64,000 bases of DNA from Archivesica marissinica (taxonomy: Eukaryota; Mollusca; Bivalvia; Venerida; Vesicomyidae), in the NCBI GenBank assembly GCA_014843695.1, contig CM026390.1:60416598-60480597 (forward strand). Reading direction: 5' to 3'. Under the pieces are notes generated by a model, which made no database searches, was not told the origin of the DNA, and was given only the letters and a program-made list of their open reading frames with translations. The translations under genes and the position numbers were made by a program. Positions 3,460-49,877 of this stretch are shown here, one piece after another. Each line of letters starts with the position of its first letter. Position 1 is the stretch's first letter.

Positions 3460-3517
3460 CAGCAGCCGTTGTGTGTGTTTTACGTTTATTTGTCGTCGCT
3501 ACAGGTAGCCCATTTAA

Positions 3518-4883
3518 AGGCCTGCAGGTTGACCTATATTTGACCTTAAACACACGAGGAATAGCGGTACAAATCTGACGGTCGACGCACTAAACACACG
3601 AGGAATAGCGGTACAAATCTGACGGTCGACGCACATCGTATTTGCCACATGCGAGGCCCTGCATGGTATACATCTAATACATGAGCACCACTTATATCTA
3701 TTATGACCCACGTACATATCAGAGGTTATAAATTGCTGAAATTGAAGTTCTGTATTTTTATAGTACTTACAACTGGTATAAACAATTCAACTCCACTTAT
3801 GGCCCAAATAAGGCTGGTTGCGCGGGTTAGGCAGCCAGTTCCTGCATTGCTGTACCACACATTCAGGCATCAGTTCCCTCTTATGCCAAGTACAGTCTCC
3901 TCTTCTAGCCGCTACTTTTCTCTCTATATATCTGACATCTTTCCATGCGCCACAATTATATAGCATTGCCCAAAACCTCCTGTATAGAAGCTTTCTCTCA
4001 TGTGAATTTAGATTATGCGGTGGACGATTATTAGCAGGCCACCAAAGTTGTTTGTTCTGTTCATTTATTATGCAAGGGGAACACAAGCACAGTGGACACT
4101 CAGCAACACCTTCAGCATGCTGAGGCATAGGGGGAGGTACGTAAGCAGCCTCTGCAACGGGCATGGCGGTGGCTGTTTCTTCTATTTCCATCTCTACGTC
4201 CCAGTTCTTATTTTGCAAGAAAGTCAGCAATTCTTTTCTCTGCTCATCAGTTACATACATTGTTATTTTACTCAATGGCATCTTGTAGAAATCGGCAGAA
4301 TATGTGTAATACTCGTATGTTCAAGAGATTATAATTATAATATTATACATGTACTCATAGCATTCACTGTGATTATTATGTAGCATCAATATCGGTAAAC
4401 ACACACTGACACAGAGAAATATTTAAAATATAACAGAAAACTTGCGAATAATACTGTAGATATATAATTAAATGAAGTATGAAGGTTACCATATAACGAA
4501 CACATATAGTTTATTCATATAAATACACACATATTATATACATGCATACAAATTATCAGTCTCAGTGATTACGCTACGGCTGATGAGGCACCTACATAAC
4601 ATGTAATCTATGTCCCTGGGCTGATCTGGATTATGTAGTTTGAATACTCATAACTATCAATTTTCTTTACAATCAATAATATACGTTTACTTAAATTGTC
4701 AGGGCCTCATTTTGACTAATTCTCAGCTCACAGAGTGATCGTGCATATTAACCGTTAGAAAATACCTACATACGCCAAATTATACTGAATGTACTGTTAC
4801 ATTGTTGATACAAGCCATTAATCACATGGAACAGGTAGTAAAGTATAAATCTTTACAATTGGACGGGGTCAAACTGCAGGCCT
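3518..4883 (-). mobile_element. 1,366-bp TTAA element with ballast-like cargo gene (copy 1)
   Basis: TTAA lies at 3514-3517 and 4884-4887. The inverted ends begin AGGCCTGCAGGTTGACC and AGGCCTGCAGTTTGACC. Next to one end is a 44-bp direct duplication (3547-3590 and 3591-3634) containing GGTCGACGCAC. The only plausible gene is the 164-aa frame at 3787-4281. No transposase is present, so the element must be mobilised in trans. Copies 2 and 3 have exactly the same length. TTAA targeting points to a piggyBac- or Kolobok-type enzyme; which one is inference. Confidence 0.92.
3787..4281 (-). CDS. 164-aa transposon-borne protein with P2X7-ballast-like domain (copy 1)
   Basis: One uninterrupted frame; the start codon is preceded by ACAAG. 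Residues 1-40 are acidic and probably helical, with a proline-rich linker at about 47-54. A cysteine cluster follows at C62, C65, C67 and C70, then an aromatic/basic stretch at 93-125. The C-terminal block at 137-163 has the pattern L-M-P-x-C...C-R-x-W-L-P-N-P...P-Y-x-G-H-K. This parallels the end of the zinc-binding cytoplasmic ballast domain of vertebrate P2X7 (L-P-x-C-C...I-R-x-x-F-P...Y-x-G-F-K). There is no channel segment, membrane span or signal peptide. Eight cysteines (62, 65, 67, 70, 110, 130, 141, 146) could bind zinc. The function is unknown; it may be an accessory protein of the element or captured cargo. Reading frames on the other strand over the same bases are shadows. Confidence 0.75.
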   Translation of the reverse strand: MPLSKITMYVTDEQRKELLTFLQNKNWDVEMEIEETATAMPVAEAAYVPPPMPQHAEGVAECPLCLCSPCIINEQNKQLWWPANNRPPHNLNSHERKLLYRRFWAMLYNCGAWKDVRYIERKVAARRGDCTWHKRELMPECVVQQCRNWLPNPRNQPYLGHKWS

Positions 4884-5134
4884 TTAAGCGACGTCTCATG
4901 AAGATATTATTCATTATAGATTATTGGAGGATAGTTAAATAATAAAGACAGAGACCCATTCCAGAATCCCCTCTGGTTCTTTTACGTGCACGGTGTAAAG
5001 CACCGACACGAGACCTCGGTTTAAACTGTTAATTTTATTAGGGTCAGACGTGGGATCGAACATGCGATCCATGGATTACCAGTCCAATGTATTAACCACT
5101 GGACTACAGATCCGTCGGTCAGCAACCGTTGTGT

Positions 5135-5556
5135 TGATACGCTACTTATAGATGCAGTGTACGGACGACGAGCAACCACAAGGAGCAGGTACCCTATGGC
5201 TGGTGAAAGGTAACTCCACAGTGTAGGATATACTGTTCTACCAATGTAACTACTATAGACACAATACACGTCTAATTCTCAATGCGTTTAAATAGATATA
5301 TATTATCACAACATGGTCCATGTTCACGCAAAACAAACCCGATGTTCCGATAAAAGGATTGTACACATATTCAACTCACTATACAAAGAACAAACGTGTG
5401 CGGAGATGTCGGAGACTAGGGTATGAATGTTATAAGACTTGAGATGAAATACTGCGCATATTCAGTTTAATATGCTGAGTTGCAACACAATATAAATATT
5501 TACTCATCCATGAATCAGCTAGATATAAGTTCTTTCTAAAATAACATTTCCTTTAA
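5135..5556. other. No gene seen
   Basis: AT-rich DNA between the interrupted SINE and a TTAA-element fragment. No repeat or reading frame is recognised. Confidence 0.5.
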
Positions 5557-5678
5557 AGCGACACTACATCAGTGAAAATGCAAATTTCTACAGAATGTAA
5601 TTTCCTATTATATGGTATAATGTTTTGATAAAAACAATGCGTATAGCTTAAAAAGTAAACGCCTATTGAAATGCATAT
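5557..5678. mobile_element. TTAA-type miniature element fragment, family F3-like
   Basis: It begins with TTAA (5553-5556) followed by AGCGACACTACATC, the same terminus as the full element at 61497-62034. The partner end is not found before the next element, so this is a fragment. Confidence 0.5.
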
Positions 5679-5682
5679 TTAA

Positions 5683-5914
5683 CCCTTTCCTTCATAGAGA
5701 TTTAGGTTATTATACTATTATATCTCCATACAAACGACGGCCATTTAGCTATCACGCAGTGGATAAGTAGTCGCCATATCTATCCCACCTCCATAGATAT
5801 TACTGGGATTAAATTATATTCGGGCCTTTATTATGAACATTTGGTTGGCTACTACATTGTCAATGTATGTCGTATTGGTAATGTCGTCAGGAGGTGCTTC
5901 TATGAGGGAAAGGG
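5683..5914. mobile_element. TTAA-flanked miniature element, family F2 (copy 1)
   Basis: TTAA lies at 5679-5682. The inverted ends are CCCTTTCCTTCATAGAG and, at the right, TCTATGAGGGAAAGGG; the right target has mutated to ATAA. At 232 bp this is the unexpanded form of the family. Copies at 16635-17942 and 49527-49873 have internal tandem duplications. The reading frame beginning at 5833 belongs to the element and is not a gene. Confidence 0.8.
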
Positions 5915-5918
5915 ATAA

Positions 5919-7074
5919 CATAACCCAGATACTTACAGATTATGTGCTCACCCACATGGTGGTAAATAAGCTCAATCATCTCTACACATTATATTTATAT
6001 TCGTATGCTATTATTCGTATGTATCTCTTTGGAGATGGAGGACATACTATGATACACGTGATTCCAATAACTATCTCGCTATTCAGCCAATGATACGTGA
6101 TAAAATCAGGTATGCCGTGATTTACATTGATATTAATAGCCCGTTGATGAGACGGACTCACATTGGCCCAATTTAAACACTTTACGCACGCGGTATAGAA
6201 TATTCCAACTCGTTAGTTATATCTTACCTCCCACATGTTTCCAGTCCTTGTTCAGATCACGCTTACATAATCTCTACCACGAAGCATATTAAGCATCTAA
6301 GTATTAGCTTTTATGGAAATCTTTATTTCAGGGAGGTAATTTGTAAGCCGTCTGCCGAATAACAGAACGGAGAGTAAATAGGCAACACTCCGATAAAGTA
6401 ACACCAACATTGATTCATTAATCGCATTATTGGGTCATGTTAGAATGGAAATAATATATATCTTCCTCTATGTTTTCGTTATTTATCGTCGAATAAAACA
6501 GTGTCGTCTTAACATGTTTTCTTAACTTGAACATGATCGGCATTTCCCCTTCTTTTTCATCCTGGTGTTTTGGGGTATGTTAATTTGAAACGTTGACGAT
6601 TTATTGTTATATTTCATATAATGTGTTTTACTCTTGCATAATTCTAATATCGCATTTGAGTAAAGATTTTCTTTTGCATAGGCATTTTCATTCAGTGCAC
6701 AGGTATGTAAGTGTAAGTAGATGAACTACCGACTCAGGCACGTATCCACACTGAGGCACACCGAGGCAGCTGCCTCTGTTAAAATTTCCAAAGCCAAAAT
6801 AAATGCCAAACATATCCCTTTGCTGTATAAAATGTTGACTGCTAGAGAGCTGAATCGCCAGTACATAATTATACGTCTAAATCATAAAACGCAGGAAATC
6901 GCTTCTTTACACCAACACTTTTAAGAGGGGACATGTCCCCGAACACCCTAGATTGCCTCTGTTGAAATGTGCCTCTGACCGTGGTACTGCTACTCGGATC
7001 GCATTCTGGAAGTTGGTTACTAACCTGCACACATAGAAAGCACTGACTTGTAAGCACACTAACCTACTTAATGA
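5919..7074. other. No gene seen; decayed repeat at 6721-7040
   Basis: Mostly AT-rich. A segment at about 6740-7040 contains GAGGCAGCTGCCTCTGTT and, later, GGGGACATGTCCCCGAACAC and GATTGCCTCTGTTG. It looks like the remnant of a transposon coding end. The family cannot be named from what is here. Confidence 0.4.
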
Positions 7075-7078
7075 TTAA

Positions 7079-8444
7079 AGGCCTGCAGGTTGACCTATAT
7101 TTGACCTTAAACACACGAGGAATAGCGGTACAAATCTGACGGTCGACGCACTAAACACACGAGGAATAGCGGTACAAATCTGACGGTCGACGCACATTGT
7201 ATTTGCCACATGCGAGGCCCTGCATGGTATACATCTAATACATGAGCACCACTTATATCTATTATGACCCACGTACATATCAGAGGTTATAAATTGCTGA
7301 AATTGAAGTTCTGTATTTTTATAGTACTTACAACTGGTATAAACAATTCAACTCCACTTATGGCCCAAATAAGGCTGGTTGCGCGGGTTAGGCAGCCAGT
7401 TCCTGCATTGCTGTACCACACATTCAGGCATCAGTTCCCTCTTATGCCAAGTACAGTCTCCTCTTCTAGCCGCTACTTTTCTCTCTATATATCTGACATC
7501 TTTCCATGCGCCACAATTATATAGCATTGCCCAAAACCTCCTGTATAGAAGCTTTCTCTCATGTGAATTTAGATTATGCGGTGGACGATTATTAGCAGGC
7601 CACCAAAGTTGTTTGTTCTGTTCATTTATTATGCAAGGGGAACACAAGCACAGTGGACACTCAGCAACACCTTCAGCATGCTGAGGCATAGGGGGAGGTA
7701 CGTAAGCAGCCTCTGCAACGGGCATGGCGGTGGCTGTTTCTTCTATTTCCATCTCTACGTCCCAGTTCTTATTTTGCAAGAAAGTCAGCAATTCTTTTCT
7801 CTGCTCATCAGTTACATACATTGTTATTTTACTCAATGGCATCTTGTAGAAATCGGCAGAATATGTGTAATACTCGTATGTTCAAGAGATTATAATTATA
7901 ATATTATACATGTACTCATAGCATTCACTGTGATTATTATGTAGCATCAATATCGGTAAACACACACTGACACAGAGAAATATTTAAGATATAACAGAAA
8001 ACTTGCAAATAATACTGTAGATATATAATTAAACGAAGTATGAAGGTTACCATATAACGAACACATATAGTTTATTCATATAAATACATACATATTATAT
8101 ACATGCATACAAATTATCAGTCTCAGTGATTACGCTACGGCTGATGAGGCACCTACATAACATGTAATCTATGTCCCTGGGCTGATCTGGATTATGTAGT
8201 TTGAATACTCATAACTATCAATTTTCTTTACAATCAATAATATACGTTTACTTAAATTGTCAGGGCCTCATTTTGACTAATTCTCAGCTCACAGAGTGAT
8301 CGTGCATATTAACCGTTAGAAAATACCTACATACGCCAAATTATACTGAATGTACTGCTACATTGTTGATACAAGCCACTAATCACATGGAACAGGTAGT
8401 AAAGTATAAATCTTTACAATTGGACGGGGTCAAACTGCAGGCCT
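7079..8444 (-). mobile_element. 1,366-bp TTAA element with ballast-like cargo gene (copy 2)
   Basis: TTAA lies at 7075-7078 and 8445-8448. Length, inverted ends, the 44-bp duplication and gene are as in copy 1 (3518-4883), in the same orientation. By eye it differs from copy 1 at about seven single bases, all outside the coding sequence; for example ACGCACATT against ACGCACATC near 7197. A family A SINE head begins about 30 bp beyond the right end. Confidence 0.92.
7348..7842 (-). CDS. 164-aa transposon-borne protein with P2X7-ballast-like domain (copy 2)
   Basis: The protein is identical, residue for residue, to those at 3787-4281 and 20231-20725. The translations of the other frames across the same bases are also identical, so the DNA appears unchanged over the whole 495 bp. 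The cysteine cluster at 62-70 and the C-terminal block at 137-163 are intact. No frameshift or stop is present. It is probably expressible, but neither promoter nor expression can be judged from the sequence. Confidence 0.75.
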   Translation of the reverse strand: MPLSKITMYVTDEQRKELLTFLQNKNWDVEMEIEETATAMPVAEAAYVPPPMPQHAEGVAECPLCLCSPCIINEQNKQLWWPANNRPPHNLNSHERKLLYRRFWAMLYNCGAWKDVRYIERKVAARRGDCTWHKRELMPECVVQQCRNWLPNPRNQPYLGHKWS

Positions 8445-8475
8445 TTAAGTAATATTGATATCGTGGGAGCAGTGA

Positions 8476-8748
8476 CCTTGTTCTGTAGCCCAGTGGTAAA
8501 CCAGGGATCGCAGGTTCGATCCCCTGTCTGATCCTAATAAAATTAACAGTCTTTCAGATGGGACGTTAAACCGAGGTCTCGTGTCGGTGCTTTACACCGT
8601 GCACGTAAAAGAATCAGAGGAGACTCTGAAATGGGTCTCTGTCTGTATCATTGCACTATCCTACAATATCTAAAATGACTAATCTCTTCAGGAGGCGTCG
8701 CTCATATGGGCAACCGGTAGCGACGATAAATAAACGTAAAAACACACT
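8476..8748 (+). mobile_element. SINE family A (A2)
   Basis: The tRNA-like head (TCTGTAGCCCAGTGGTAAAC, then GCAGGTTCGATCCCC as B box) has lost about 20 bases of the anticodon region. The conserved core includes ATGGGACGTTAAACCGAGG and CGTGCACGTAAAAGAATC. The tail ends AGCGACGATAAATAAACG. The core resembles a deeply conserved animal SINE domain (possibly the one called Nin-DC); that name is from memory. Confidence 0.85.
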
Positions 8749-9126
8749 TGCTCCAGAGTTCCAGTCATCCATGTTCCAATCATCGAAGGTAGAACAATAT
8801 GCATTATATAGACTATTGCTGGTGTCATAAAGAATATTGACCCGCCAAAATAATGACCCACGGGTCATTATTCTATAGGAAAAAGTGACCCACGGGTCCA
8901 TATTCTATTATAGCTATAACTATGTAATATGCTGTTAACAATTATAATTCTGACTGGTGTGGCTAACTAATTTTGTCACAGGTGTGCAAATCCCCATAAT
9001 AAAGCAATAACACCTTATTGTTGGAGCACTGCAATCAACTGTGACACTTCCTGTGTTCCCAATACTCTGTTTACATGTTTTATATCATTCATAATAGGTA
9101 ATATTTTATTATTGCTATGAGTAAAG
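8749..9126. other. No gene; possible seed of the adjacent minisatellite
   Basis: At about 8835-8905 the text alternates GACCCACGGGTCATTATTCT and AAAAGTGACCCACGGG. This resembles a diverged or ancestral unit of the array starting at 9127. The rest is unassigned. Confidence 0.45.
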
Positions 9127-10165
9127 ACATTATGGGTCATTATTCTATGGCATGGAAAAGTGACCCCCCCCTCACTCGTACTGTGTAAACATAGGGGTGT
9201 CATTATTCTATGGCATGGAAAACTGATCCCCCCTCACTCGTACTGTGTAAACATAAGGGTGTCATTATTTTATGGCATGGAAAAGTGACCACCTTCCTCA
9301 CTCATACTGTGTAAACATAGGGGTGTCATTATTCTATGGCATGGAAAACTGATCCCCCCTCACTCGTACTGTGTAAACATAGGGGTGTCATTATTCTATG
9401 GCATGGAAAAGTGACCCCCCCCTCACTCATACTGTGTAAACATAGGGGTGTCATTATTCTATGGCATGGAAAACTGACCCCCCCCTCACTCATACTGTGT
9501 AAACATAGGGGTGTCATTATTCTATGGCTTGGAAAAGTGCCCCCCCCCTTCACTCATATAGTTTACATACGGTGGTCTATATTCTATGGCATGGAAAAGT
9601 TGCCCCCCTCACTCGTACTGTGTAAACATAGGGGTGTCATTATTCTATGGCATGGAAAAGTGACCCCCTCACTCGTACTGTGTAAACATAGGGGTGTCAT
9701 TATTCTATGGCATGGAAAAGTGACCCCCCTCACTCGTACTGTGTAAACATAGGGGTGTCATTATTTTATGGCATGGAAAAGTGACCCCCCCCCTCACTCG
9801 TACTGTGTAAACATAGGGTGTCATTATTCTATGGCATGGACAAGTGACCCCCCCCCTCACTCGTACTGTGTAAACATAGGGGTGTCATTATTCTATGGCA
9901 TGGAAAACTGATCCCCCCTCACTCGTACTGTGTAAACATAGGGGTGTCATTATTCTATGGCATGGAAAACTGATCCCCCCTCACTCGTACTGTGTAAACA
10001 TAGGAGTGTCATTATTCTATGGCATGGACAACTGATCCACCCCCCACTCACTCATATAGTTTACATATAGGGTGGTCTATATTCTATGGCATGGAAAAGT
10101 GACCACCCTCACTCGTACAGTATAAACATAGGGTGGTCATTATTCTATGGCCAAATTATTTTGAG
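9127..10165. repeat. Minisatellite, about 62-bp unit, about 17 copies
   Basis: The unit contains GTCATTATTCTATGGCATGG, AAAAGTGACC, a C run of 4-9 bases, CTCACTCGTACTGTGTAAAC and ATAGGGGT. Variation is concentrated in the C run and in AAAAGTGACC versus AAAACTGATC. A 136-aa reading frame inside (9336-9746) arises from the periodicity and is not a gene. Confidence 0.95.
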
Positions 10166-10329
10166 GGGGATCAATATTCTATATGACACCGGGACCGAGC
10201 GATGTGTTCGAGCAATCGGGGGTGTTCTAATTAACCAAGTTCGAGGCAACACAGTTTGACTGTATGCGCTTGGCTACTTGATATGGAAGATGAATACAAA
10301 GTCTTAAGTAAATTGGATGAAAACAGCGC

Positions 10330-10570
10330 TGGACTGGTAATCCGTCTGACCATAATACAATTAACAGTCTTTCAGATGGGACGTTAAACCGAGGTCTCGT
10401 GTCAGTGCTGTGCACCGTGCACTTAAAAGAACCAGAGGAGACTCTGGAATGCGTCTTTCTCTCTGTATCATTGCACTATCCTCCAACAATCTAAAATGAC
10501 TAATCTCTTCAGGAGGCGTCGCTCATATGGGCAACCGGTAGTGACGATAAAAAAACGTAAAACACACACA
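10330..10570 (+). mobile_element. SINE family A (A3), head damaged
   Basis: It retains GCTGGACTGGTAATCCGTCT, then core blocks GATGGGACGTTAAACCGAGG and CACTTAAAAGAACCAGAGG. The tail reads GTAGTGACGATAAAAAAACG. The B-box part of the tRNA-like head is deleted. Confidence 0.8.
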
Positions 10571-10739
10571 CATGAAAACAGTAGGAGGAATTCAGTTACA
10601 CCTGATTCACCATGTCTTAATCTTTACAACACCAGGAAGCTATGGTACAATGCAATATAGATTGTTATTATACTGCATACAAAGGAGAAGGAAGTTATGT
10701 GATAGAGGTACTAATCATATTTCAATCTATTGGCATTAA

Positions 10740-10898
10740 AGTATTCAACACCACATACCTCTAAATTGGCTTACAAAAGAGTGTAGATCCAGATGAGCCG
10801 GCTCGTGACGAGCTGATCCAAATGTAATTTTGTTATTAATTTATAGGTCTAAAAATATCATGGACCAGTTCATGTCAGTTACTTGGTGTTGAATGGGT
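10740..10898. mobile_element. TTAA-type miniature element, family F4 (diverged)
   Basis: The right end reads TTACTTGGTGTTGAATGGG before TTTAA, the complement of the family terminus CCCATTCAACACCAAG. The left end is ATTAAAG with CAACACCACAT. The middle carries a short palindromic stretch, GAGCCGGCTCGTGACGAGCT, shared with the intact copy at 55550-55787. Confidence 0.6.
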
Positions 10899-10902
10899 TT
10901 AA

Positions 10903-11274
10903 GTATTCAAAATCTTTTCAATAATCGGTACCAATATATTGAGAATCCAATAGAAACTTATAAATGAAGATTCGTCAGTATCTTAGTGGATTAATTTTTA
11001 GACAGTTAAATTGAAGAGGTAATGTATATTATTTTATTATTTTTAATAAACTGTAAACTTTAGGTGTTAGTGGACTACCAGCCTGGGAATAGGCGATGGT
11101 ATATTTTGCCTGGTCTGTCATATAAAGATATTTTTACACCGAGACCATTAATTAAAATCCGTCATCTCATCGATATAACGTAGAAACATGTAATAATATG
11201 CTGACACATTTTTGCAATGTAAATGAGTAATTTTCAGTACATGTTGAGGTTATATCATGGCAAACAAGTCTGAA
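10903..11274. other. No gene seen
   Basis: AT-rich intergenic DNA without recognised features. Confidence 0.5.
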
Positions 11275-11502
11275 CAGTGATAGCGCAGTGGATGCGTGTT
11301 CGCTTCAGGTGCGAAAGGTCCGGAGTTCGAGCCCCACTGGAGCCGTAACGATTGTGCCCTTAGGCAAGGCATTTAAATTCCACATTGCCTCTTCTCTCTC
11401 CCTCGTGGCGATGGATTCCATCAGGAATGAGGTCTCGAGAGTGATTTATATAAGTTGAAATAACTTGTTTCGCAATCGAGCTAAAATAAATTTGTATAAA
11501 CT
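11275..11502 (+). mobile_element. SINE family C (C2), near full length
   Basis: The tRNA-like head has an A box (TAGCGCAGTGGATGCGTG) and a B box (GGAGTTCGAGCCCC). The body has ACGATTGTGCCCTTAGGCAA and ATTCCATCAGGAATGAGG. The tail reads TTCGCAATCGAGCTAAAAT. It is transcribable by RNA polymerase III in principle. This is the best copy of the family in the window. Confidence 0.88.
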
Positions 11503-11635
11503 AAACAGTGTAGATTTATCACTTTATGACCCCAGAAATGCTTGAATCAGAGCAATGAGAGCTTAGTGTGGATCTAAATGATAACATTCACTAGTAATAG
11601 TGTTTTGCAGCCATTCCACAATATTTATTAGTGCA

Positions 11636-11895
11636 TCAGGGTTCCTGCTGGTGGTCGACAATGGCGCCAATTGCGACAAAAAACAAATACTGGAGCTAAA
11701 TTTGGCGAATATATTTGGCGCAAATATTTTTTGTTTATTTTTTGCTGCAACATGTTTTGTCAAATACATATGGCTTCAAATAGTTATATGTGAACCATGT
11801 GGCTCTTTGTTGGTTCCAAGTTTTTCAAATTTGCTCCATTTTTTTCAATTGGCAACAGAAGTGGTGCAGACAAATGTTCAGACAGAGGGAACCCT
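11636..11895. mobile_element. Possible miniature element with CAGGGTTCC inverted ends
   Basis: ATCAGGGTTCCTGCTGG on the left and GAGGGAACCCTGTGTATC on the right form short inverted ends. GGAGAAGTGAC text beyond the right end recurs at about 16600, suggesting a dispersed repeat. The 111-aa reading frame across it has no recognisable domain. Confidence 0.35.
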
Positions 11896-12120
11896 GTGTA
11901 TCAGGGAACAAGCTACATGTAGGCTGAAACTTTAGGGAGAAGTGACTACTCCCTTACTCTTCAGTTAGTGAGAAGTTTGAACAATTAGGGAGAAATGAGA
12001 CTTCAACTACCGCCTTCAAGAATGCATGATTAATTGTTTTAAAATGTTCACATAATATACTAACTTACTAAGCTAAGTCTAATTCACATACATGTACATG
12101 TAATTATTATTATTTGTTTA

Positions 12121-12333
12121 GTTTATACAAATATTATTTTAGCTCGATTGCGAAACAAGTTCTTACAACTTATATTAATCACTCTCGAGACCTCATTCAT
12201 GATGGAATCCATCGCCACGAGGGAGAGAGAAGAGGCAACGTGGAAATTAAATGCCTTGCCTAAGGGCTGCCAAGAATCGTAACGGCTCCAGCGAGATTTC
12301 GAACTCCGGACCTTTTCGCACCTGAAGCGATTA
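12121..12333 (-). mobile_element. SINE family C (C3)
   Basis: A reverse-strand copy: it starts with ATTTTAGCTCGATTGCGAAA and ends with CTCCGGACCTTTTCGCACC and CTGAAGCGA. It lies about 700 bp upstream of the Toll-like receptor start codon. Confidence 0.85.
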
Positions 12334-12567
12334 TTTGTTTAATAGCTTGGTTGGCTTTGATCGAACCATGAATTGGCATTGGTGCCATATACCGGAAATG
12401 GTCAAACCATGGACAAAGCATTGTCAACAATGGTCATAGACAATAGTACAACCATGATTGTTTCATAGGGGAAGTACATTGTGTAGTATGAGTTTGTGAT
12501 GACAATATAATATTATATATATATACCAATAGTTCACCCTGAGCAGAGTAGACCTAAGGTGAGTTAA

Positions 12568-12640
12568 CTCTTTGCATGCTGGGTAAAATGAAGGCTATAA
12601 ATAGTTCAAATAATTGCAGCAGACGTTACAGTTCAAGTGT
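12568..12640. mobile_element. Fragment of TTAA miniature element, family F5
   Basis: GTTAACTCTTTGCATGCTGG matches the terminus of the F5 element at 51340-51585 (TTAACCCTTTGCACGCT). More F5-like text resumes at about 12815-12935, so the 5' flank of the receptor gene is partly built of this element. Confidence 0.5.
12596..12603 (+). promoter_or_regulatory. Possible TATA box upstream of the Toll-like receptor
   Basis: TATAAATA lies 441 bp before the chosen start codon, followed about 30 bp later by possible initiator text. It lies inside transposon-like DNA. That it drives the receptor gene is a guess. Confidence 0.2.
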
Positions 12641-12668
12641 TTGTCTGATTGGTAACTGAAAACCCTCG

Positions 12669-12739
12669 AAATATGTCATGGAATTTCATTAGAATTATGT
12701 CGTAACGACACAATTGTAATGAAAGTCCATGACATATTT
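12669..12739. repeat. 35-bp near-perfect inverted repeat (hairpin)
   Basis: The arms at 12669-12703 and 12705-12739 match at about 32 of 35 positions, with a one-base spacer. The outer part reads AAATATGTCATGGA. It can form a long hairpin or cruciform about 300 bp upstream of the receptor start. It may be a snap-back miniature element or a structured RNA; nothing decides between these. Confidence 0.8.
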
Positions 12740-12814
12740 GACTGTTATTTTCACCGTAGTATGTAAAGAATTAATAACTTAACCCATAATCACACCTCTG
12801 CCAAGTCGCTTTTG

Positions 12815-12935
12815 CAAACAGCATACAGCCAGATCAGACGTCACAGAATGTGCTGTCTGATCAGACTCTATGCTGTTTGTTATTCGGATAGTCAAGCTAA
12901 AACATTTGCTATGGCTGATCTGGATCTATGTTATT
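12815..12935. mobile_element. F5-related repeat in the 5' flank of the receptor gene
   Basis: Blocks such as GCCAGATCAGACGTCACAGA, GTCTGATCAGACTCTATG and TATTCGGATAGTCAAGCT recur in the F5 element at 51380-51450. Because this is repeat DNA, the in-frame upstream extension of the receptor reading frame (from 12812) is unlikely to be protein. Confidence 0.6.
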
Positions 12936-13003
12936 TGCACATTCCGTCCAATTTATATGGCAGGTTAAGGGATAATATACATGTATGCTTTCTGTACAAA
13001 AAT

Positions 13004-13015
13004 TGTCCTTTTCAG
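13004..13015 (+). promoter_or_regulatory. Probable 3' splice site of a 5'UTR intron
   Basis: TGTCCTTTTCAG is a good acceptor 21 bp upstream of the chosen start codon. Molluscan Toll-like receptors often have a 5'UTR intron followed by one coding exon. The matching donor was not located. Confidence 0.5.
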
Positions 13016-13036
13016 GAACTTCATACCACCAGGATA

Positions 13037-15223
13037 ATGTTGCTGCAGTACCCACTTATAGCTACTATCCTCATAGCAAACATTGCTCTCACTGCAAGTA
13101 CTCTAAGTGATGATTGTGCAGTGAAACATAGCACGGTTACATGTCAACAAACAATACCAACCGAGCTGCCTGATAACACAACCGAGGTCTACATAAAGAA
13201 CTGGTTTCAAGAGATTACTGACAATACATTCAACCACAGCAGCTGGTCTTCAGTCGAAAAACTAGACATTACTGTTCTCAGCAAAGAGCATGATACAGAG
13301 TTTGGTCCTTACAATTTACAGTCATTATCAAACCTCCAGTATCTTGGATACCATTCTCCAAATTTAGGTTCTGTTCGTTACCCGGCTACGTTTACCGGAA
13401 TAAAGAAGCTTAGAATACTTGATCTGGCCGACTGTATCCAAGATATAGTTGGTAGTCTCATGAGAACACTGACAACTACGGGTATACTACCGGTCCTTGA
13501 CACAATCATTCTAGATAGAACTGATACCCTATATGCTGGAAAGCCCTTTGAACTGGATACAACATTTAGTGACGTTCTCCATTTCAAGAAAATAAAACAT
13601 CTCAGTCTATCTGGAACATACTTTCTTATAAAAGACATGCAAGTTTTAATGAGAACATTTGCATTGGAAAGTTTTAATATGTCATACGCCTTTGGTATAT
13701 TCACAAATGCTGATAGCAAGCTTAAAACAAAAGTATTGAACAACCTTTTAAAAGATTTGAAAACACTTGATGTGAACTATTACAGAATAGGTTCTCAAGC
13801 TGATCATCTCACATCTCAAGAAAATGTATCACTAGCCAACTGCAATTCAGAAAGTGAACAAAGTGACTATTTATTTGGCATTGAAAACCTGTATGCAAAT
13901 GGCTTACAGATAGCCAGTATAGTTAAGTCCTATGCGGATATATCAAAATGCTCTGTAAGTTGGAAAGTTGTCCATGCTGCAAGAAATAACCTAGAGGAAC
14001 TGGACATAACTATAAAATGGCCAACAAGTATCAGTCTATATGAACTTGACATCTCCTATAACAAGATGAAGTATCTGTCACCCGCAGCTTTCTCCGGAGT
14101 TCATTCCATGAAAAACATGTTTCTCAGTTATAACAGACTATCATTGATGGCAGACACTTCAGAATTCTCAGAACTGTTCAAGACTTTTCAACTGCTGGAA
14201 CATGTCACCCTAGCCAATAATGGTCTATCGTATATACCTGAGAACATGTTTGAGAAAAACATACACATGAAAGTGATAGACTTAAGTGGAAATGAACTGA
14301 CTTCAATCACATTTGAAACAAAACAATTCAAAGCTTTAATGTATTTAGACCTATCCAGTAATAAGATATACATCATAGATGTCAACACGAGGCCAAGACT
14401 TGATCGTTTAATGAACACTGGTGATGGGTATATTGATTTATCAGGCAATGCATTCCAATGTTCATGTGAAAGTCAAGATTCTATAAAATGGTTGATTGCT
14501 TTCCAGGAAATGAACAATGTGAGCTTTACATGTGAATCTGAAGGAACAGAAATTGGTATGGACACGAAGGCTTTAGGCGAATCACAATACCAGTGTTACA
14601 AGGTATTACTGCTGCTTGCAACAATTGCAATAGGTGTTGTCGCAGTTCTTGTAGCTTCTCTGCTTACATTTCTTATTGTCAGAATCATCAGAAAGTATCA
14701 AAGAAAAGACGCTGTTAAGAGATTTATCAAAAACTATAGACATAAAAATATTGTAGAATCGTTCCTTGTGATGCTTTCGTACAGTAGCCTGGATGGAGAT
14801 CTTGTGCTGGAGTCTATTTATCCAATGCTTGAATATCATCTGAGAGACAGAGTAAAGATTGCCAATGATATTGTTTGTATTGATGACAAACATTTTCGAC
14901 CAGGACGTACAATCGTGGAAGAAATGATGGATCATATTCGTGATTCTTGCGTTGTTGTATTTGTTGTATCTAACTCATTCTGTAAAAGTCAATGGTGTTG
15001 TCAAGAAGTGGAGGAAGCCTACGCACGGGGAAAGCCAATCATACTTCTGTACTTGGAGGAAGTAGACCAGGACATAATGCCGGCTCATTTACGCGATCTT
15101 TTTGACAGATATACAAGAACCAAACTTAAAGTAGACGATCAAGGCCAATACCATTTGAAACCAAGCTGGCCATTGCTTTCTCAATCCATTCTTGAACTGG
15201 CAAGTCAGAAGTTGCCACCATAA
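13037..15223 (+). CDS. Toll-like receptor (LRR-TM-TIR), 728 aa, single coding exon
   Basis: A type I membrane receptor of innate immunity; the TIR domain would recruit MyD88-type adaptors. Residues 1-22 form a signal peptide (MLLQYPLIATILIANIALTA). C27 and C36 suggest a short N-terminal cap. About eleven leucine-rich repeats follow (clearest: LYELDISYN, LEHVTLANN, MKVIDLSGN, LMYLDLSSN). A C-terminal cysteine cap has C475, C477, C499 and C520. The membrane span is about 523-548, with basic residues after it. The TIR domain is 576-728: box 1 FLVMLSYSS (576-584), box 2 FRPGRTI (620-626), box 3 reduced to S710-W711. One C-terminal cysteine cluster suggests the single-cluster (vertebrate-like) TLR class. 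The frame is open from 12812, but the upstream 75 residues derive from repeat DNA. The methionine at 13037 is chosen because a signal peptide and a splice acceptor precede the mature protein. The ligand is unknown. Confidence 0.93.
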   Translation: MLLQYPLIATILIANIALTASTLSDDCAVKHSTVTCQQTIPTELPDNTTEVYIKNWFQEITDNTFNHSSWSSVEKLDITVLSKEHDTEFGPYNLQSLSNLQYLGYHSPNLGSVRYPATFTGIKKLRILDLADCIQDIVGSLMRTLTTTGILPVLDTIILDRTDTLYAGKPFELDTTFSDVLHFKKIKHLSLSGTYFLIKDMQVLMRTFALESFNMSYAFGIFTNADSKLKTKVLNNLLKDLKTLDVNYYRIGSQADHLTSQENVSLANCNSESEQSDYLFGIENLYANGLQIASIVKSYADISKCSVSWKVVHAARNNLEELDITIKWPTSISLYELDISYNKMKYLSPAAFSGVHSMKNMFLSYNRLSLMADTSEFSELFKTFQLLEHVTLANNGLSYIPENMFEKNIHMKVIDLSGNELTSITFETKQFKALMYLDLSSNKIYIIDVNTRPRLDRLMNTGDGYIDLSGNAFQCSCESQDSIKWLIAFQEMNNVSFTCESEGTEIGMDTKALGESQYQCYKVLLLLATIAIGVVAVLVASLLTFLIVRIIRKYQRKDAVKRFIKNYRHKNIVESFLVMLSYSSLDGDLVLESIYPMLEYHLRDRVKIANDIVCIDDKHFRPGRTIVEEMMDHIRDSCVVVFVVSNSFCKSQWCCQEVEEAYARGKPIILLYLEEVDQDIMPAHLRDLFDRYTRTKLKVDDQGQYHLKPSWPLLSQSILELASQKLPP

Positions 15224-15278
15224 CAAGTGAAACATTACTACATTTTACTGAGAAGACTGAGAGACTCTTGATATGTCT

Positions 15279-15284
15279 ATTAAA
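15279..15284 (+). terminator. Possible polyadenylation signal of the receptor gene
   Basis: ATTAAA, 56 bp after the stop codon. It is a common variant signal, but no transcript end is known. Confidence 0.35.
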
Positions 15285-15339
15285 TTGATTGAGGACCTTG
15301 CATGCCTCATGTATCACTTTGTATTGGTATACAGTAAAA

Positions 15340-15376
15340 CCTGTCTTAAGCAGCCACCCAAGGGGGGAAAAAGAAA
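15340..15376. mobile_element. End fragment of a TA-flanked miniature element
   Basis: TACAGTAAAACCTGTCTTAA is a second copy of the terminus of the adjacent element at 15379-15556. It is a truncated or partly duplicated copy. Confidence 0.6.
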
Positions 15377-15378
15377 TA

Positions 15379-15556
15379 CAGTCAAACCTGTGTTAGTAGT
15401 CACCTTCATTAAGCAACCAATCTGTATTAAGCAGCCAGTTTCCAGATACCCAATATGTTACTTGATTATACATTTGACCTCTATTAAGCAGCCACATGTG
15501 CTTAGCAGCCACTTTCTGTCATTCCCTTGGCTGGTCGCTTAAAACAGGTTTGACTG
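15379..15556. mobile_element. Tc1/mariner-like miniature element (CAGTCAAACCTGT ends)
   Basis: Flanked by TA (15377-15378 and 15557-15558). The inverted ends are CAGTCAAACCTGTGTTAG and, on the right, ACAGGTTTGACTG. The interior repeats TTAAGCAGCCA four times. It lies just downstream of the receptor gene, possibly within its 3'UTR. A related copy is at 51832-51973. Confidence 0.8.
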
Positions 15557-15730
15557 TATACATGAAGTTGATATTGACAAGATAAATCATATATGATGTG
15601 AAAATTAACACTATGTTTAAATTTTATCTGTTTCAGATCAGGCAAATTTTCATCATCTGCAAAAAGAATTTGCCATGTACTATTGAATTTATTGTTGTTC
15701 AGACTTTCAAGGTGTTTCACCTGTGCTTAA

Positions 15731-16302
15731 AGCAGAATTACATCGTATGAAATAAAAGATATGTGAAAAATTCAAATTTTATGTATGGGTAGCAATGCTG
15801 CTACACATTCTAACATTATATACTTTGTATGCTTATGTTCATTTGGTAAACAGTGTTTTTTTGCGATAAAACAAACTCGAAACCGAAAGTAGGACTTTCC
15901 GAGTTGATCGGTCACGCACTTGTTTACAACCGGAACGCATCTTTCCCATTTGTCCCACGTTGTCTTTTTAATTAAATTACTTGATATGTTGATTCATACC
16001 TCTGTTAGCTAAGTCTTTTAGGGACATTTCTACATCCCCGCGAGGGGTTCGACATTAGAGGAAGATAGATAGATAGTCTTTCATGTTCAAAATATATACG
16101 TTGTTTTCTACATCCTGTTGTTTCACGCATGCGCGCTGTGCGTGTTTATAGTTCGTGTGTTGATAAATAAATTCGCGTATACGACGGTTTAAATTTATTG
16201 GAATTTTATCGTTTCTGAGCGACTATTTCGATTTTTGTAAACACACACACATTAGTATTTATATTTTACCCAAAACATCCTTTATTACGATGTAATGCTG
16301 CT
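15731..16302. mobile_element. TTAA-flanked miniature element, family F1 (copy 2, inverted)
   Basis: The reverse complement of the element at 562-1198, shorter by about 65 bp. TTAA is kept at 15727-15730 but lost on the right (GCTGCTGTAGG). It shares GGGTAGCAATGCTGCTACAC and ATGTCGAACCCCTCGCGGGG (complement) with copy 1. Confidence 0.8.
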
Positions 16303-16329
16303 GTAGGTGTAAATTGTTAAAGACATTAA

Positions 16330-16431
16330 CCCATTCAACACCAAGTAACTCACATGGACTGGTCCATGATATGAATCAGAAAATCACATTTGGACAAGTA
16401 CATTTATCAAAATGGGTAATTATAAAAAGGG
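16330..16431. mobile_element. TTAA-flanked miniature element, family F4, internally deleted
   Basis: TTAA lies at 16326-16329 and 16432-16435. The left end CCCATTCAACACCAAGTAAC matches the copy at 55550-55787. At 102 bp it lacks most of the interior. Confidence 0.7.
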
Positions 16432-16634
16432 TTAATCCACTCATCATTTTGGATTATGGAACCACACATGTGTGAGTGTTATGATCGGTGACACTGGACA
16501 GATATCGAGTTTGTTTTAGTGTTTTTCGCATTGATGTCATAAGTGCACAGACACTATTCACTTGTCATAGTGCAGGGTTCATTCTAGGTCAGAATTGTTG
16601 GGAGAAGTGAGAAAGCATGCAATCGCATCCTTAA

Positions 16635-17942
16635 CCCTTTCCTTCATAGAGATTTAGGTTAATATACTATTATATATCCATACAAACAACAGCCATTTAG
16701 CTATCATACAGTGGATAAGTAGTCACCATATCTATCCCACCACAATAGATATTACTGGGACTTCATAGAGATTCTGACCTTTATTATGAACATTGGTTTG
16801 GCTACTACATTGTCAATGTATGTCGTATTGGTAATGGCGTCAAGAGGTGCTTCTATGAGGGAAATGGTTTATGAACATTGGTTTGGCTACTACATTGTCA
16901 ATGTATGTTGTATTGGTAATGGCGTCAAGAGGTGCTTCTATGAGGGAAATGGTTTATGAACATTGGTTTGGCTACTACATTGTCAATGTATGTTGTATTG
17001 GTAATGGCGTCAAGAGGTGCTTCTATGAGGGAACGGGTTTATGAACATTGGTTTGGCTACTACATTGTCAATGTATGTTGTATTGGTAATGGCGTCAAGA
17101 GGTGCTTCTATGAGGGGAACGGGTTATGAACATTGGTTTGGCTACTACATTGTCAATGTATGTCGTATTGGTAATGGCGTCAAGAGGTGCTTCTATGAGG
17201 GAAATGGTTTATGAACATTGGTTTGGCTACTACATTGTCAATGTATGTCGTATTGGTAATGGCGTCAAGAGGTGCTTCTATGAGGGAAATGGTTTATGAA
17301 CATTGGTTTGGCTACTACATTGTCAATGTATGTCGTATTGGTAATGGCGTCAAGAGGTGCTTCTATGAGGGAAATGGTTTATGAACATTGGTTTGGCTAC
17401 TACATTGTCAATGTATGTTGTATTGGTAATGGCGTCAAGAGGTGCTTCTATGAGGGAACGGGTTTATGAACATTGGTTTGGCTACTACATTGTCAATGTA
17501 TGTTGTATTGGTAATGGCGTCAAGAGGTGCTTCTATGAGGGAAATGGTTTATGAACATTGGTTTGGCTACTACATTGTCAATGTATGTTGTATTGGTAAT
17601 GGCGTCAAGAGGTGCTTCTATGAGGGAAAGGGTTTATGAACATTGGTTTGGCTACTACATTGTCAATGTATGTCGTATTGGTAATGGCGTCAAGAGGTGC
17701 TTCTATGAGGGAAAGGGTTTATGAACATTGGTCTGGCTACTACATTGTCAATGTATGTTGTATTGGTAATGGCGTCAAGAGGTGCTTCTATGAGGGAAAG
17801 GGTTAATGTATGTTGTATTGGTAATGGCGTCAAGAGGTGCTTCTATGAGGGAAAGGGTTTATGAACATTGGTTTGGCTACTACATTGTCAGTGTATATCG
17901 TATTGGTAATGGCGTCAAGAGGTGCTTCTATGAGGGAAAGGG
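16635..17942. mobile_element. TTAA-flanked miniature element F2 (copy 2), tandemly expanded
   Basis: TTAA lies at 16631-16634 and 17943-17946. The ends CCCTTTCCTTCATAGAG and TCTATGAGGGAAAGGG are as at 5683-5914. The element is 1,308 bp instead of about 232 bp because its right portion is repeated in tandem (see 16782-17942). Confidence 0.88.
16782..17942. repeat. 85-bp tandem array derived from the F2 element's 3' end, about 13 copies
   Basis: Unit: TTTATGAACATTGGTTTGGC, TACTACATTGTCAATGTATG, then TATTGGTAATGGCGTCAAGA, GGTGCTTCTATGAGGGAAA. One unit near 17805 is truncated. Each unit ends with an F2 terminus, so the array is a ladder of transposon ends. Confidence 0.93.
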
Positions 17943-17946
17943 TTAA

Positions 17947-18470
17947 ATGGTGTTATTTAATAAATTTAAACAAAATATGGTTAAAAGGCCCAGTATGACC
18001 ATTAAATAATGGTAAATGTTGTATGAAAATTGTAAATAAAACAACAAATTTAAAATAATTATATTTATTATATAATTCATTTTTATATGTCCCTAGGGCG
18101 ACTATTTTGCCCACATCGCCCTGTAGTGATATTTATTGCGATAGATGGATGGTATACTGGTAGCTTACCTGATAAGAATGGGTGGTCACCAGGTGCGTAG
18201 CTTGGCCCTGAGATATGTGTAGGTACCATTAAGATAGTGGGTCCAAAAGGCTCACTTAATAGCAACATTCCAAAACTCGATTCGTAAAATATGGTATGAA
18301 CTCACCACTGATGTAAGATCCTATATTTGTATTAAATATTTTGATTTCAACTGAATTTAATTACACTGCACTAACAAATAACGCCTTTAAAAAGATAAAA
18401 TGTTATATTATGAAAACCTAATAACAGTTGATACCTAGGACCAAGGTAACTTCAGATTTTATCCATATAG
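17947..18470. other. No gene seen
   Basis: AT-rich. A GGTGCGTAGCTTGGCCCTGA stretch at about 18193 resembles transposon-end text also seen near position 100. No coding sequence is supported. Confidence 0.45.
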
Positions 18471-18707
18471 TTTATACAAATTTATTTTAGCTCGATTGCG
18501 AAACAAGATCTTACAACTTGTATTAATCACTCTCAATACCTCATTCCTGATGGAATCCATCGCCACGAGGGAGAGAGAGAAGAGGCAATGTGGAATTTAA
18601 ATGCCTTGCCTAAGGGCAGAATCGTAACGGTTCCAGCAGGGCTCAAACTCCGGACCTTTCGCACCTGAAGTAAACGTACATCCACTGCGCTAGCACCATC
18701 CATATGG
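18471..18707 (-). mobile_element. SINE family C (C4)
   Basis: A reverse-strand copy with tail ATTTTAGCTCGATTGCGAAA, body GGAATCCATCGCCACGAGGG and head blocks CTCCGGACCTTTCGCACC and ACTGCGCTAGCACCA. Confidence 0.87.
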
Positions 18708-18910
18708 CACCAATAGCCATGTATCTCTAACTATCCTAGGGGGTAGGACCCATAAACATATATTTTATAATAGAGGGGGGTCCTAGGAATTTGGTGCCTT
18801 ACACTAAAGATCCTAGGATAAAGGTACATGGTTTTTTATGCCTTATAGATTAAATCTCAATTTCCTGTGAATATAGCTAACATTCAGTTACAAATAACTT
18901 CCTTACGTAA

Positions 18911-18993
18911 GCGGTTCGGCTAGCTCAGTTGGTAGAGTGTTTGCTCCAAGTCTGTAAGCCAATGGTCCCAGGTTCGAAAATCCAGGTTGGCTA
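18911..18993 (+). other. tRNA-like sequence, probable pseudogene or SINE head
   Basis: TAGCTCAGTTGGTAGAGTG is a good A box and GGTTCGAAAATCC a B box with inserted A residues. The acceptor arms (GTTCGGC and TTGGCTA) do not pair, so a working tRNA is unlikely. Confidence 0.5.
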
Positions 18994-18999
18994 CAGGTT

Positions 19000-19624
19000 T
19001 AATTTATATATTGACTTCTTATTTTCATGGTAAACATTTGACATACATACTGGTAATCGTCAAATACAAAGTCTGTGAGACTATGTTCGTTATAAAATAA
19101 ACACATTTTATTATGACGCCATTTTTGGTCGTCTAAACACGACTTCTAGCACCCTTTAGCCCACGGTTGCATCGTTGTCTATAATAACAAGAACAACTAC
19201 TACATATAAATATGTAACAGAAGGACGATTGAACATTTACTCTGCATAATACACACTCGGATAGTGTATTGAGTGACTGTGTATAAATTATAAAGTGCAT
19301 ACTTTAGTAATTAAATGCAAACATGTTGATAATAACATGAAACCCTGTCCAATATAATAGTATATACCACATCCTGTTGGAACATCCGAGAATAATATGG
19401 GAACTAATTATTGTTTCAGAATTTCAACTGTGTAAATAGATTGACCTGGCCATTTCTGGATTCCAGCTCAAGCCTGTATTTCTATGCACACACCAGTGAA
19501 AGCTTGGAACTAGTTCCCTGAAAACAATTGGACAATTATAATATCTAAAATACGAATACATAACAGTAATTCTTATCACATAAATTCCCATTTGTCCAGA
19601 AAACACTTTTCAGTCTGTGTTTAC
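19000..19624. other. No gene seen
   Basis: AT-rich spacer between the tRNA-like sequence and the third 1,366-bp element. Confidence 0.5.
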
Positions 19625-19628
19625 TTAA

Positions 19629-20994
19629 AGGCCTGCAGATTGACACCGTCCAATTGTAAAGATTTATACTTTACTACCTGTTCCATGTGATTAGTGGCTT
19701 GTATCAACAATGTAGCAGTACATTCAGTATAATTTGGCGTATGTAGGTATTTTCTAACGGTTAATATGCACGATCACTCTGTGAGCTGAGAATTAGTCAA
19801 AATGAGGCCCTGACAATTTAAGTAAACGTATATTATTGATTGTAAAGAAAATTGATAGTTATGAGTATTCAAACTACATAATCCAGATCAGCCCAGGGAC
19901 ATAGATTACATGTTATGTAGGTGCCTCATCAGCCGTAGCGTAATCACTGAGACTGATAATTTGTATGCATGTATATAATATGTATGTATTTATATGAATA
20001 AACTATATGTGTTCGTTATATGGTAACCTTCATACTTCATTTAATTATATATCTACAGTATTATTCGCAAGTTTTCTGTTATATTTTAAATATTTCTCTG
20101 TGTCAGTGTGTGTTTACCGATATTGATGCTACATAATAATCACAGTGAATGCTATGAGTACATGTATAATATTATAATTATAATCTCTTGAACATACGAG
20201 TATTACACATATTCTGCCGATTTCTACAAGATGCCATTGAGTAAAATAACAATGTATGTAACTGATGAGCAGAGAAAAGAATTGCTGACTTTCTTGCAAA
20301 ATAAGAACTGGGACGTAGAGATGGAAATAGAAGAAACAGCCACCGCCATGCCCGTTGCAGAGGCTGCTTACGTACCTCCCCCTATGCCTCAGCATGCTGA
20401 AGGTGTTGCTGAGTGTCCACTGTGCTTGTGTTCCCCTTGCATAATAAATGAACAGAACAAACAACTTTGGTGGCCTGCTAATAATCGTCCACCGCATAAT
20501 CTAAATTCACATGAGAGAAAGCTTCTATACAGGAGGTTTTGGGCAATGCTATATAATTGTGGCGCATGGAAAGATGTCAGATATATAGAGAGAAAAGTAG
20601 CGGCTAGAAGAGGAGACTGTACTTGGCATAAGAGGGAACTGATGCCTGAATGTGTGGTACAGCAATGCAGGAACTGGCTGCCTAACCCGCGCAACCAGCC
20701 TTATTTGGGCCATAAGTGGAGTTGAATTGTTTATACCAGTTGTAAGTACTATAAAAATACAGAACTTCAATTTCAGCAATTTATAACCTCTGATATGTAC
20801 GTGGGTCATAATAGATATAAGTGGTGCTCATGTATTAGATGTATACCATGCAGGGCCTCGCATGTGGCAAATACGATGTGCGTCGACCGTCAGATTTGTA
20901 CCGCTATTCCTCGTGTGTTTAGTGCGTCGACCGTCAGATTTGTACCGCTATTCCTCGTGTGTTTAAGGTCAAATATAGGTCAACCTGCAGGCCT
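19629..20994 (+). mobile_element. 1,366-bp TTAA element with ballast-like cargo gene (copy 3, inverted)
   Basis: TTAA lies at 19625-19628 and 20995-20998. The length equals copies 1 and 2, in opposite orientation. The left end reads AGGCCTGCAGATTGACACC, with two changes from the other copies' terminus. At sites where copies 1 and 2 differ, this copy agrees sometimes with one and sometimes with the other, so no two copies are simply parent and offspring. Confidence 0.92.
20231..20725 (+). CDS. 164-aa transposon-borne protein with P2X7-ballast-like domain (copy 3)
   Basis: The forward-strand copy of the cargo gene, identical in protein to the copies at 3787-4281 and 7348-7842. The start is the first ATG after TTTCTACAAG and the stop follows HKWS. 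An upstream leader of about 600 bp separates the gene from the element end and could hold a promoter or 5' intron. The downstream 67-aa frame (20795-20998) runs through the 44-bp duplication to the terminus and has no recognisable domain. Confidence 0.75.
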   Translation: MPLSKITMYVTDEQRKELLTFLQNKNWDVEMEIEETATAMPVAEAAYVPPPMPQHAEGVAECPLCLCSPCIINEQNKQLWWPANNRPPHNLNSHERKLLYRRFWAMLYNCGAWKDVRYIERKVAARRGDCTWHKRELMPECVVQQCRNWLPNPRNQPYLGHKWS

Positions 20995-20998
20995 TTAA

Positions 20999-25885: not shown

Positions 25886-27410
25886 CATGATTGTTAACAA
25901 TGTAAATAATATGTATGTATTAGATATTAACGAATTTTCTGATCATTGTCCATTAACTTTCTCATTTTGTTGTATAAATGATATCAATCAGAATGAATAT
26001 GTTGAGTTTGATAGAATCATATCAATGATAAGTTGAGTGGAGAATTTGATATTAATCAATGTATGAAGTGTTTTTCTGATACTGTGTTTGATATTTCTTA
26101 TTGGTGCTATGGTAGAACTTTCAATAATCGCCAAAAACCAAAGAAACGGAAGTCACTATGGTTTAATAATGATTGTAAAATTGCTACAAATAAGTTGTGT
26201 GATGCTAAACGCCTCTATTCTTCAGTAAAATCTGAGGTAAATAGATTGCACATGCTTGTATGTAGAAATAATTATTGTAAAGTTAAATAGCAAATATGGC
26301 TAATATGAGTAAAACGGCACCACGTAAGTTTTGGAATTATGTTTAAAAATTTAATTCTTCTAATAATGTTGATTCTAGTGTTAGTCTAGATGAATTAAAA
26401 AAATATTTTGAAAATATATCCAATGCATCTCAAGGTAATGTAAATGGTGATATGCTTAACAATATGCGCAATGAGCCTGTTAATATCGAATGTCTTGATA
26501 GAACTATTTCTATTGAAGAGGTAGAAAAACTATACCTATGTTGAATCGCTATAAAAGTTGTGATTTAGACATCAATGTGTCGGATTTCTTTATTGATGCA
26601 AATAATGTTATATCTCCATATTTATGTACTATGTTTAACTATATTTACGATAATTCTACATAACCTGAGGCATGGTCCAAATGGGTCATATGTCCAATAT
26701 ATAAAAAGAGTGATACAACTATTCCCCCTAATTACCCTGGTAAATGTTATTGGAAATATTTTCTCATTATTATTGCGAAACCGTGTAAATACATCGTGTG
26801 AAAATGAAAATATATTTAATGATAATCAACATGGCTTTCGTGATGGTCGTTCTACGGCTGCTCCTATTTTTATGTTACATGCTATTATTCAAAAGGTATT
26901 ATCAAATAAATCTAAGCTATGGTGCATCTTTATTGATTATCAAAGAGCTTTTGATACCGTCAATAGAGATGCACTATGGACACAGCTTATACATCAGGCG
27001 TTAGCTGTAAAATGACCAACATGATTAAATGTATATATAATAATGCACAAGCTTGTGTTAAAATGTCAAGCAATATGAATATGTCTAATTTCTTTGATGT
27101 AACAATTTGTCTTAAACAGGATGGACCTTTATCACCGCTACTCTTCATTTTGTTTATCAATGACATTGTTGAACATATCGATTTTAATACATTAACTGAC
27201 ACAGATTATGAGCTGTTTTCAATGTATATGATTTTATTTGCTGACGATATAGTTTTGTTTACCACTGATCCTGGTAGTTTACAATCTCAGATTGATGCTG
27301 TGCAACATTATTCAGAAAAATGGGGTCTTAAAATCAATGTGAATAAGACAAACATTTGTATTTTTGAAAAACGGAAACAAAATGTATATCCTGAATTCTT
27401 CATCGATATT

Positions 27411-29602: not shown

Positions 29603-29610
29603 CAAGTTGT

Positions 29611-49873: not shown

Positions 49874-49877
49874 TTAA

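Follow-up and report, generated by a model that had tools for sequence, protein, structure and literature searches.

Why should a transposable element that encodes no transposase keep an intact gene of another kind? The question is raised by a stretch of 64,000 nucleotides from the vesicomyid bivalve Archivesica marissinica (assembly GCA_014843695.1, contig CM026390.1, positions 60,416,598 to 60,480,597 of the forward strand; hereafter the window), which holds three near-identical units of 1,366 bp, each with one open reading frame (ORF) for a protein of 164 amino acids. We consider it probable that the unit is a recently moved non-autonomous transposon of the Kolobok type that has kept an accessory gene related to KolX, the product of which most likely assists a transposase in trans.

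An earlier note on this DNA, made from the letters alone, had described three near-identical units bounded by TTAA and by inverted ends, and both the alignment of the units and a count of their end motif bear this out. With the TTAA on each side the units measure 1,374 bp (1,366 bp without) and lie at 3514..4887 (copy 1, minus strand; the element proper spans 3518-4883), 7075..8448 (copy 2, minus strand) and 19625..20998 (copy 3, plus strand, inverted relative to copies 1 and 2). Copy 3 aligns to copy 1 with 99.64% identity (5 mismatches, 0 gaps) and copy 2 to copy 1 with 99.49% (7 mismatches, 0 gaps), and the alignment between copies stops exactly at TTAA. The 64-kb window contains six perfect matches to the 14-mer TTAAAGGCCTGCAG, one for every unit end, and no further perfect copy of the unit ends is present elsewhere in it; with up to three mismatches allowed there are eight matches, compared with a mean of 2.51 in shuffled sequences, and only the six unit ends are perfect. 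Inside the TTAA, copies 1 and 2 have an inverted repeat of 17 bp made up of AGGCCTGCAG (10 bp, perfect), one mismatch and TTGACC, the left arm of copy 1 lying at 3518..3534 (plus strand) and the right arm at 4867..4883 (minus strand). The repeat of copy 3 is 16 bp long with one mismatch, its two private changes, both in one end, shortening it by one base. Copy 1 also contains a subterminal tandem direct repeat (44 bp, 2.0 copies, 100%; 3547..3634, plus strand), which is possibly a binding region of the transposase. Pairwise divergence is 0.36-0.51%, and each of the nine variable sites sets a single copy apart from the other two (3, 4 and 2 sites). In this star pattern no copy is clearly derived from another after divergence began, and the pattern neither needs nor excludes local hopping.

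The proximity of the three copies could also reflect a segmental duplication of host DNA, and here the surroundings of copy 1 are informative. Copy 1 interrupts a dispersed repeat of about 275 bp that occurs in both orientations in the window. When its flanks (3471-3513 and 4888-5119) are joined with one TTAA, the joined sequence has eight further matches in the window. Seven of these cross the junction, one of them (42229-42084) by a few bases only; the eighth match (63942-64000) lies to the right of the junction only. The repeat is found near 8494-8747, 10343-10570, 27414-27690, 29606-29707, 33367-33596, 41981-42231, 43875-44166 and 63831-64000. All seven uninterrupted paralogues align across the junction without a gap, with ATGA in place of the TTAA of copy 1; therefore, the repeat was whole before copy 1 inserted, and the TTAA arose by duplication of the target. 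For copy 1 these uninterrupted sites contradict a segmental duplication. Also against it are the exact limits of the homology at TTAA, the inverted ends at either side, and the flanks of the three copies, which are unlike each other at the junctions. On these grounds we reject the duplication, the probability of which we consider negligible. For copies 2 and 3 the window holds no uninterrupted counterpart spanning the junction, and their transposition is indicated by common ends set in unrelated surroundings. The interpretation as a TTAA transposon rather than a duplicated host segment is supported, and for copy 1 it is shown.

Which class of transposon the unit belongs to can be judged from its termini. 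A TTAA target is common to Kolobok and piggyBac elements, and Kolobok termini read 5'-RR and YY-3' (PMC9587614, here and below cited from part of its text). TTAA stands on both sides of all three copies, in keeping with the 4-bp target of both groups, and the termini are 5'-AG..CT-3' in each of them, in agreement with the RR/YY rule; the AGG..CCT ends do not agree with the non-RR/YY, CCC-type ends of piggyBac. Because the unit starts with AG and ends with CT, as the published rule has it, we file its DNA ends as probably Kolobok-type rather than piggyBac. The full-length Xenopus Kolobok ends tabulated in PMC6004289, likewise cited from part of the paper, start with AG, mostly AGG. Assignment to KolobokP was rejected, as long terminal direct repeats of about 450 or 660 bp are missing: comparison of terminal stretches of 300, 450 and 660 bp at shifts of up to 30 gave a best ungapped identity of 0.31. 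Miniature inverted-repeat transposable elements (MITEs) are short and have no coding capacity, a definition that fits neither the length of the unit (1,366 bp) nor its intact gene, which encodes a 164-aa member of a conserved family. A second TTAA-bounded element, of 645 bp, lies at 558-1202; its 13-bp perfect inverted repeat, AGCAGCATTACAT, has the 5'-AG of the Kolobok type, and its ends are unlike those of the 1,366-bp unit.

The ORF is located at 3787..4281 (minus strand) in copy 1, 7348..7842 (minus strand) in copy 2 and 20231..20725 (plus strand) in copy 3, and the encoded protein is identical in all three. A frame survey of the three units confirmed one intact 164-aa gene and no transposase in each, as had been stated before: the only stop-free frames of at least 110 codons per unit are the ORF itself and one antisense to it, and no frame within the unit is long enough for a DDD/E transposase with the C/DxxH signature of Kolobok. 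By itself the open frame does not settle coding status, as a stop-free run of that length arose in 2 of 1000 randomisations in which two-base blocks were shuffled; we take the ORF to be coding on account of its homologues. A first homologue search returned, apart from the entry of the window itself, two relatives; a profile of these three brought the number to 45 entries and a profile of the 45 added eight more (P0046-P0053), giving 53 in total including the window's own. These relatives show the ORF to be a member of a genuine protein family.

In members of the family, a conserved N-terminal stretch is joined by a variable linker to a compact C-terminal domain. C62, C65, C70, C141 and H161 are invariant across 37 chosen rows, and C67 is a cysteine in 27 of them; the 37 were chosen from the 53, and the 16 left out are mostly, though not all, short or truncated, so that the choice favours complete proteins. 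The unchosen 45-row alignment has no invariant column, the same five residues being present in 42, 42, 42, 44 and 41 rows, respectively. An AlphaFold2 model of the 164-aa protein has a mean predicted local distance difference test score (pLDDT) of 88.6 and a predicted template modelling score (pTM) of 0.68. In our reading the protein has a short N-terminal helix, then the variable linker, and in its compact domain one conserved set of four cysteines (plus the histidine), which is probably a single zinc site. In viral and prokaryotic genome contigs no relative of the protein was confirmed, and the end pattern was not found in the viral contigs.

The earlier note had assigned a ballast domain to this protein. 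Rump and colleagues (PMC7016195, cited from part of the paper) give the ballast positions as R546, A549, Y550, Y/F553, W559, I/V568, P570, C572, R578, F/Y581 and P582. We compared these positions in two blocks (R546-W559 and I/V568-P582) with the spacing fixed within each block, after the likeness had been seen by eye, so that the test is not blind. The family consensus matches eight of the eleven positions, which 2 of 20,000 shuffles did as well, and the window's protein seven (152 of 20,000 shuffles); the 37 family rows match 6-10, and P2X7 itself matches 10. The matched positions R96, Y100, F103, P139, C141, R147 and P151 are among the most conserved of the family. Five of the 45 members (P0002, P0006, P0008, P0009 and P0041) match the Pfam family P2RX7_C below its cut-off (best E 0.064), over 33-37 residues that end 3-4 residues before the C terminus and correspond to profile positions 156-191 of 192. 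In hhalign comparisons with three P2X7 tails, residues 88-162 were placed in register with the corresponding P2X7 stretch.

Proteins of a similar sort are already known from TTAA elements. According to Kojima and Bao (PMC9587614), Kol0 Kolobok elements encode a transposase together with KolX, a ballast-fold protein that they propose as the source of the cytoplasmic ballast domain of P2X7 and of Nanor, and a reduced KolX-like protein, in which most of the seven cysteines are missing, is encoded by a few piggyBac elements. In kind, therefore, there is nothing new in a TTAA element with a ballast-like gene, which that account already describes. What is unusual is that recently moved copies keep the accessory gene without a transposase; a literature search returned no plain description of transposase-less elements of this sort, which does not show that none has been published. 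The note had named, as a fact that would speak against its proposal, a catalogued full-length element with this protein as a standard component; such elements do exist in the Kol0 lineage, the correspondence being to that lineage as a whole and not to the 164-aa family in particular.

Several results weigh against our reading. The five P2RX7_C matches score 12.2-13.6 bits against a cut-off of 23.5, and in the Pfam scan, which took in 52 members (the 45 and seven newer ones, P0053 being left out), the family was not matched by the window's protein, by any of three consensus sequences or by any of the seven newer members; for the window's protein, up to E 10, there was only a chance-level match to another family. 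hhalign assigns a probability of 3.6%; its score is equalled or passed by 3 of 200 column shuffles, of which the best lies clearly above it, while the reversed control stays below. Foldseek gave no match in the PDB at E<5, despite the high confidence of the model (pLDDT 88.6); P2X7 structures exist in the PDB, their presence in Foldseek's copy being unconfirmed. The seven-cysteine signature, with its clusters as published in PMC7016195, is absent: only C62, C65, C70 and C141 are kept throughout, and C67 in 27 of the 37 rows. Among published KolX-like proteins, the only ones we encountered that lack most of the seven cysteines belong to piggyBac elements (PMC9587614), the terminal motif AGGRR of the T2-MITE (PMC6004289) is not present in the unit, which has AGGCC, and neither a transposase nor a full-length relative with the unit's ends was seen. 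Beyond these points, Foldseek searches of the PDB and of viral models yielded nothing at E<=0.001, and sequence searches of the PDB with one sequence, a 3-row profile or a 45-row profile found nothing relevant. A RING-like zf-C3HC4 match (E 0.01, one of the three consensus sequences) was rejected, as it covers 15 residues only and is equal in both scrambled versions, in both of which scrambling had left the matching part untouched. A full, canonical ballast domain is thus not accepted, given the missing Pfam match in the protein, the missing fold match and the missing cysteine signature. Of the earlier assignment there remains the fit of the C-terminal half to the published conserved positions (8 of 11), with Pfam below threshold in 5 of the 52 members; the assignment is thus partly supported, and we conclude that this half is related to the ballast domain, a canonical domain not being established.

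The protein looks like the reduced KolX-like type and yet stands between Kolobok-type ends, which brings a piggyBac origin into consideration: the unit would be a piggyBac derivative with atypical ends, and its protein the reduced KolX-like protein of a few piggyBac elements. The matches to the ballast positions in the C-terminal half and the four nearly invariant cysteines agree with such an origin, and piggyBac also uses TTAA (PMC9587614); the ends, however, begin with AG, the feature by which the same source distinguishes Kolobok from piggyBac. We regard a piggyBac origin as distinctly unlikely. The window also holds another end type, CCCTTTCC beside TTAA at 16631 and 17806/17946, which we take to be the usual piggyBac type and which argues against counting the unit's own ends as piggyBac. 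At 16631-17946, inverted ends CCCTTTCCYTCATAGA of this piggyBac-like type beside TTAA flank tandem arrays, one with a unit of 85 bp (12.1 copies, 16784-17808) and one with a unit of 140 bp (2.0 copies, 17665-17946) that repeats the right end.

Where the gene came from bears on what it may do. The earlier note had left open a helper protein for transposition or a host-derived cargo. A host zinc-finger gene captured by a non-autonomous element would explain why no transposase lies beside it, and two relatives are named as plain animal proteins (Branchiostoma LOC144876560 and Ixodes ISCGN_009627). Transposon genes receive such names too, however, and published relatives of this kind, as far as PMC9587614 was available, are transposon genes or derived from them; the cargo proposal thus lacks support, and we consider it very improbable. 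The helper proposal fares better, in that Kol0 elements carry KolX beside the transposase (PMC9587614), which makes an accessory protein likelier than host cargo, although the action of KolX itself is not shown in the part of that account available.

Based on these considerations, we propose the following hypothetical scenario for a Kolobok-type element with a KolX-related gene, in which (i) a two-gene Kolobok element lost its transposase gene, leaving the accessory gene and both ends, which is the likeliest history; (ii) the AGGCCTGCAG..CTGCAGGCCT ends would be recognised by a Kolobok transposase encoded elsewhere in the genome; (iii) this transposase, from an autonomous relative, would bind the ends and move the unit into TTAA, duplicating the four bases; (iv) the retained 164-aa protein would most likely assist or target the transposase in trans, probably joining in transposition as KolX presumably does for Kol0 elements. 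The distribution of changes among the copies touches on the last step. None of the nine variable sites falls in the 495-bp ORF, which makes up 36% of the unit (0.018 if sites were random); this is suggestive and no more, because the change-free tract (unit positions 124 to 914) is wider than the gene. The unit might instead be a plain deletion derivative, the gene of which is intact only through the youth of the copies, has no role and will decay. A divergence of 0.36-0.51% leaves little time for decay and three copies cannot show selection, both in keeping with such a derivative, whereas the conserved protein family and, suggestively only, the unchanged ORF may tell against it. This explanation, possible though on balance unlikely, agrees with ours on the element and opposes it on the role of the gene, and the confidence placed in the two overlaps.

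If an accessory role is accepted, a further hypothesis can be formulated, namely a 'half-autonomous' Kolobok lineage that is permanently without a transposase and is kept mobile by supplying the accessory protein in trans. We hold it to be improbable; if it were true, transposase and helper would reside on separate, mutually dependent elements with one common set of ends. Elements keeping a KolX-type gene without a transposase would constitute a natural test of action in trans: if copies profit from the accessory protein, selection should act on its reading frame even where the transposase is missing, and young, near-identical copies are good material for such a test.

The remainder of the window contains further features. 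Between copies 2 and 3, an open frame of 803 amino acids (12812-15220) encodes leucine-rich repeats and a TIR domain of the Toll-like receptor type. A broken reverse transcriptase in two overlapping frames (RVT_1) lies at 26575-27593 and is presumably of the long interspersed nuclear element (LINE) type. At 49225-52222, two 41-bp arms in inverted orientation match exactly, their likeness continuing outward (18 of 20 bases) and, offset, inward; the stretch that they enclose includes long open repetitive frames. Exactly 1,000 N stand at 44199-45198 within a repetitive stretch, where the window is incompletely resolved.

In comparison with known systems, the unit is closest in description to several TTAA elements and differs from each. 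The Kol0 lineage (e.g. Kolobok-1_XT) shares with it the TTAA duplication, the 5'-RR..YY-3' ends and a small accessory protein with ballast-type C-terminal positions; in contrast to the unit, it possesses a transposase, and the unit's protein is without the seven-cysteine ballast signature. The Xenopus T2-MITE, a presumed non-autonomous Kolobok, is alike in TTAA target, AGG start and lack of a transposase, and differs in its AGGRR ends (AGGCC in the unit) and in being described as a short non-autonomous element, whereas the unit has an intact 164-aa gene. With the piggyBac elements that encode a KolX-like protein (PMC9587614), likened here by description only, the unit has in common the TTAA and a protein missing most of the seven cysteines, but its ends are Kolobok-type and no piggyBac transposase was seen. 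Common to the 164-aa protein, the P2X7 ballast domain and Nanor are the blocks R...Y..[FY] and PxC.....R..[FY]P, followed by Y.G, which sits one residue further on in the 164-aa protein than in P2X7; the 164-aa protein differs in having neither the first cluster PxWCxCx2C nor the LCCR cluster as such, and no P2X channel part.

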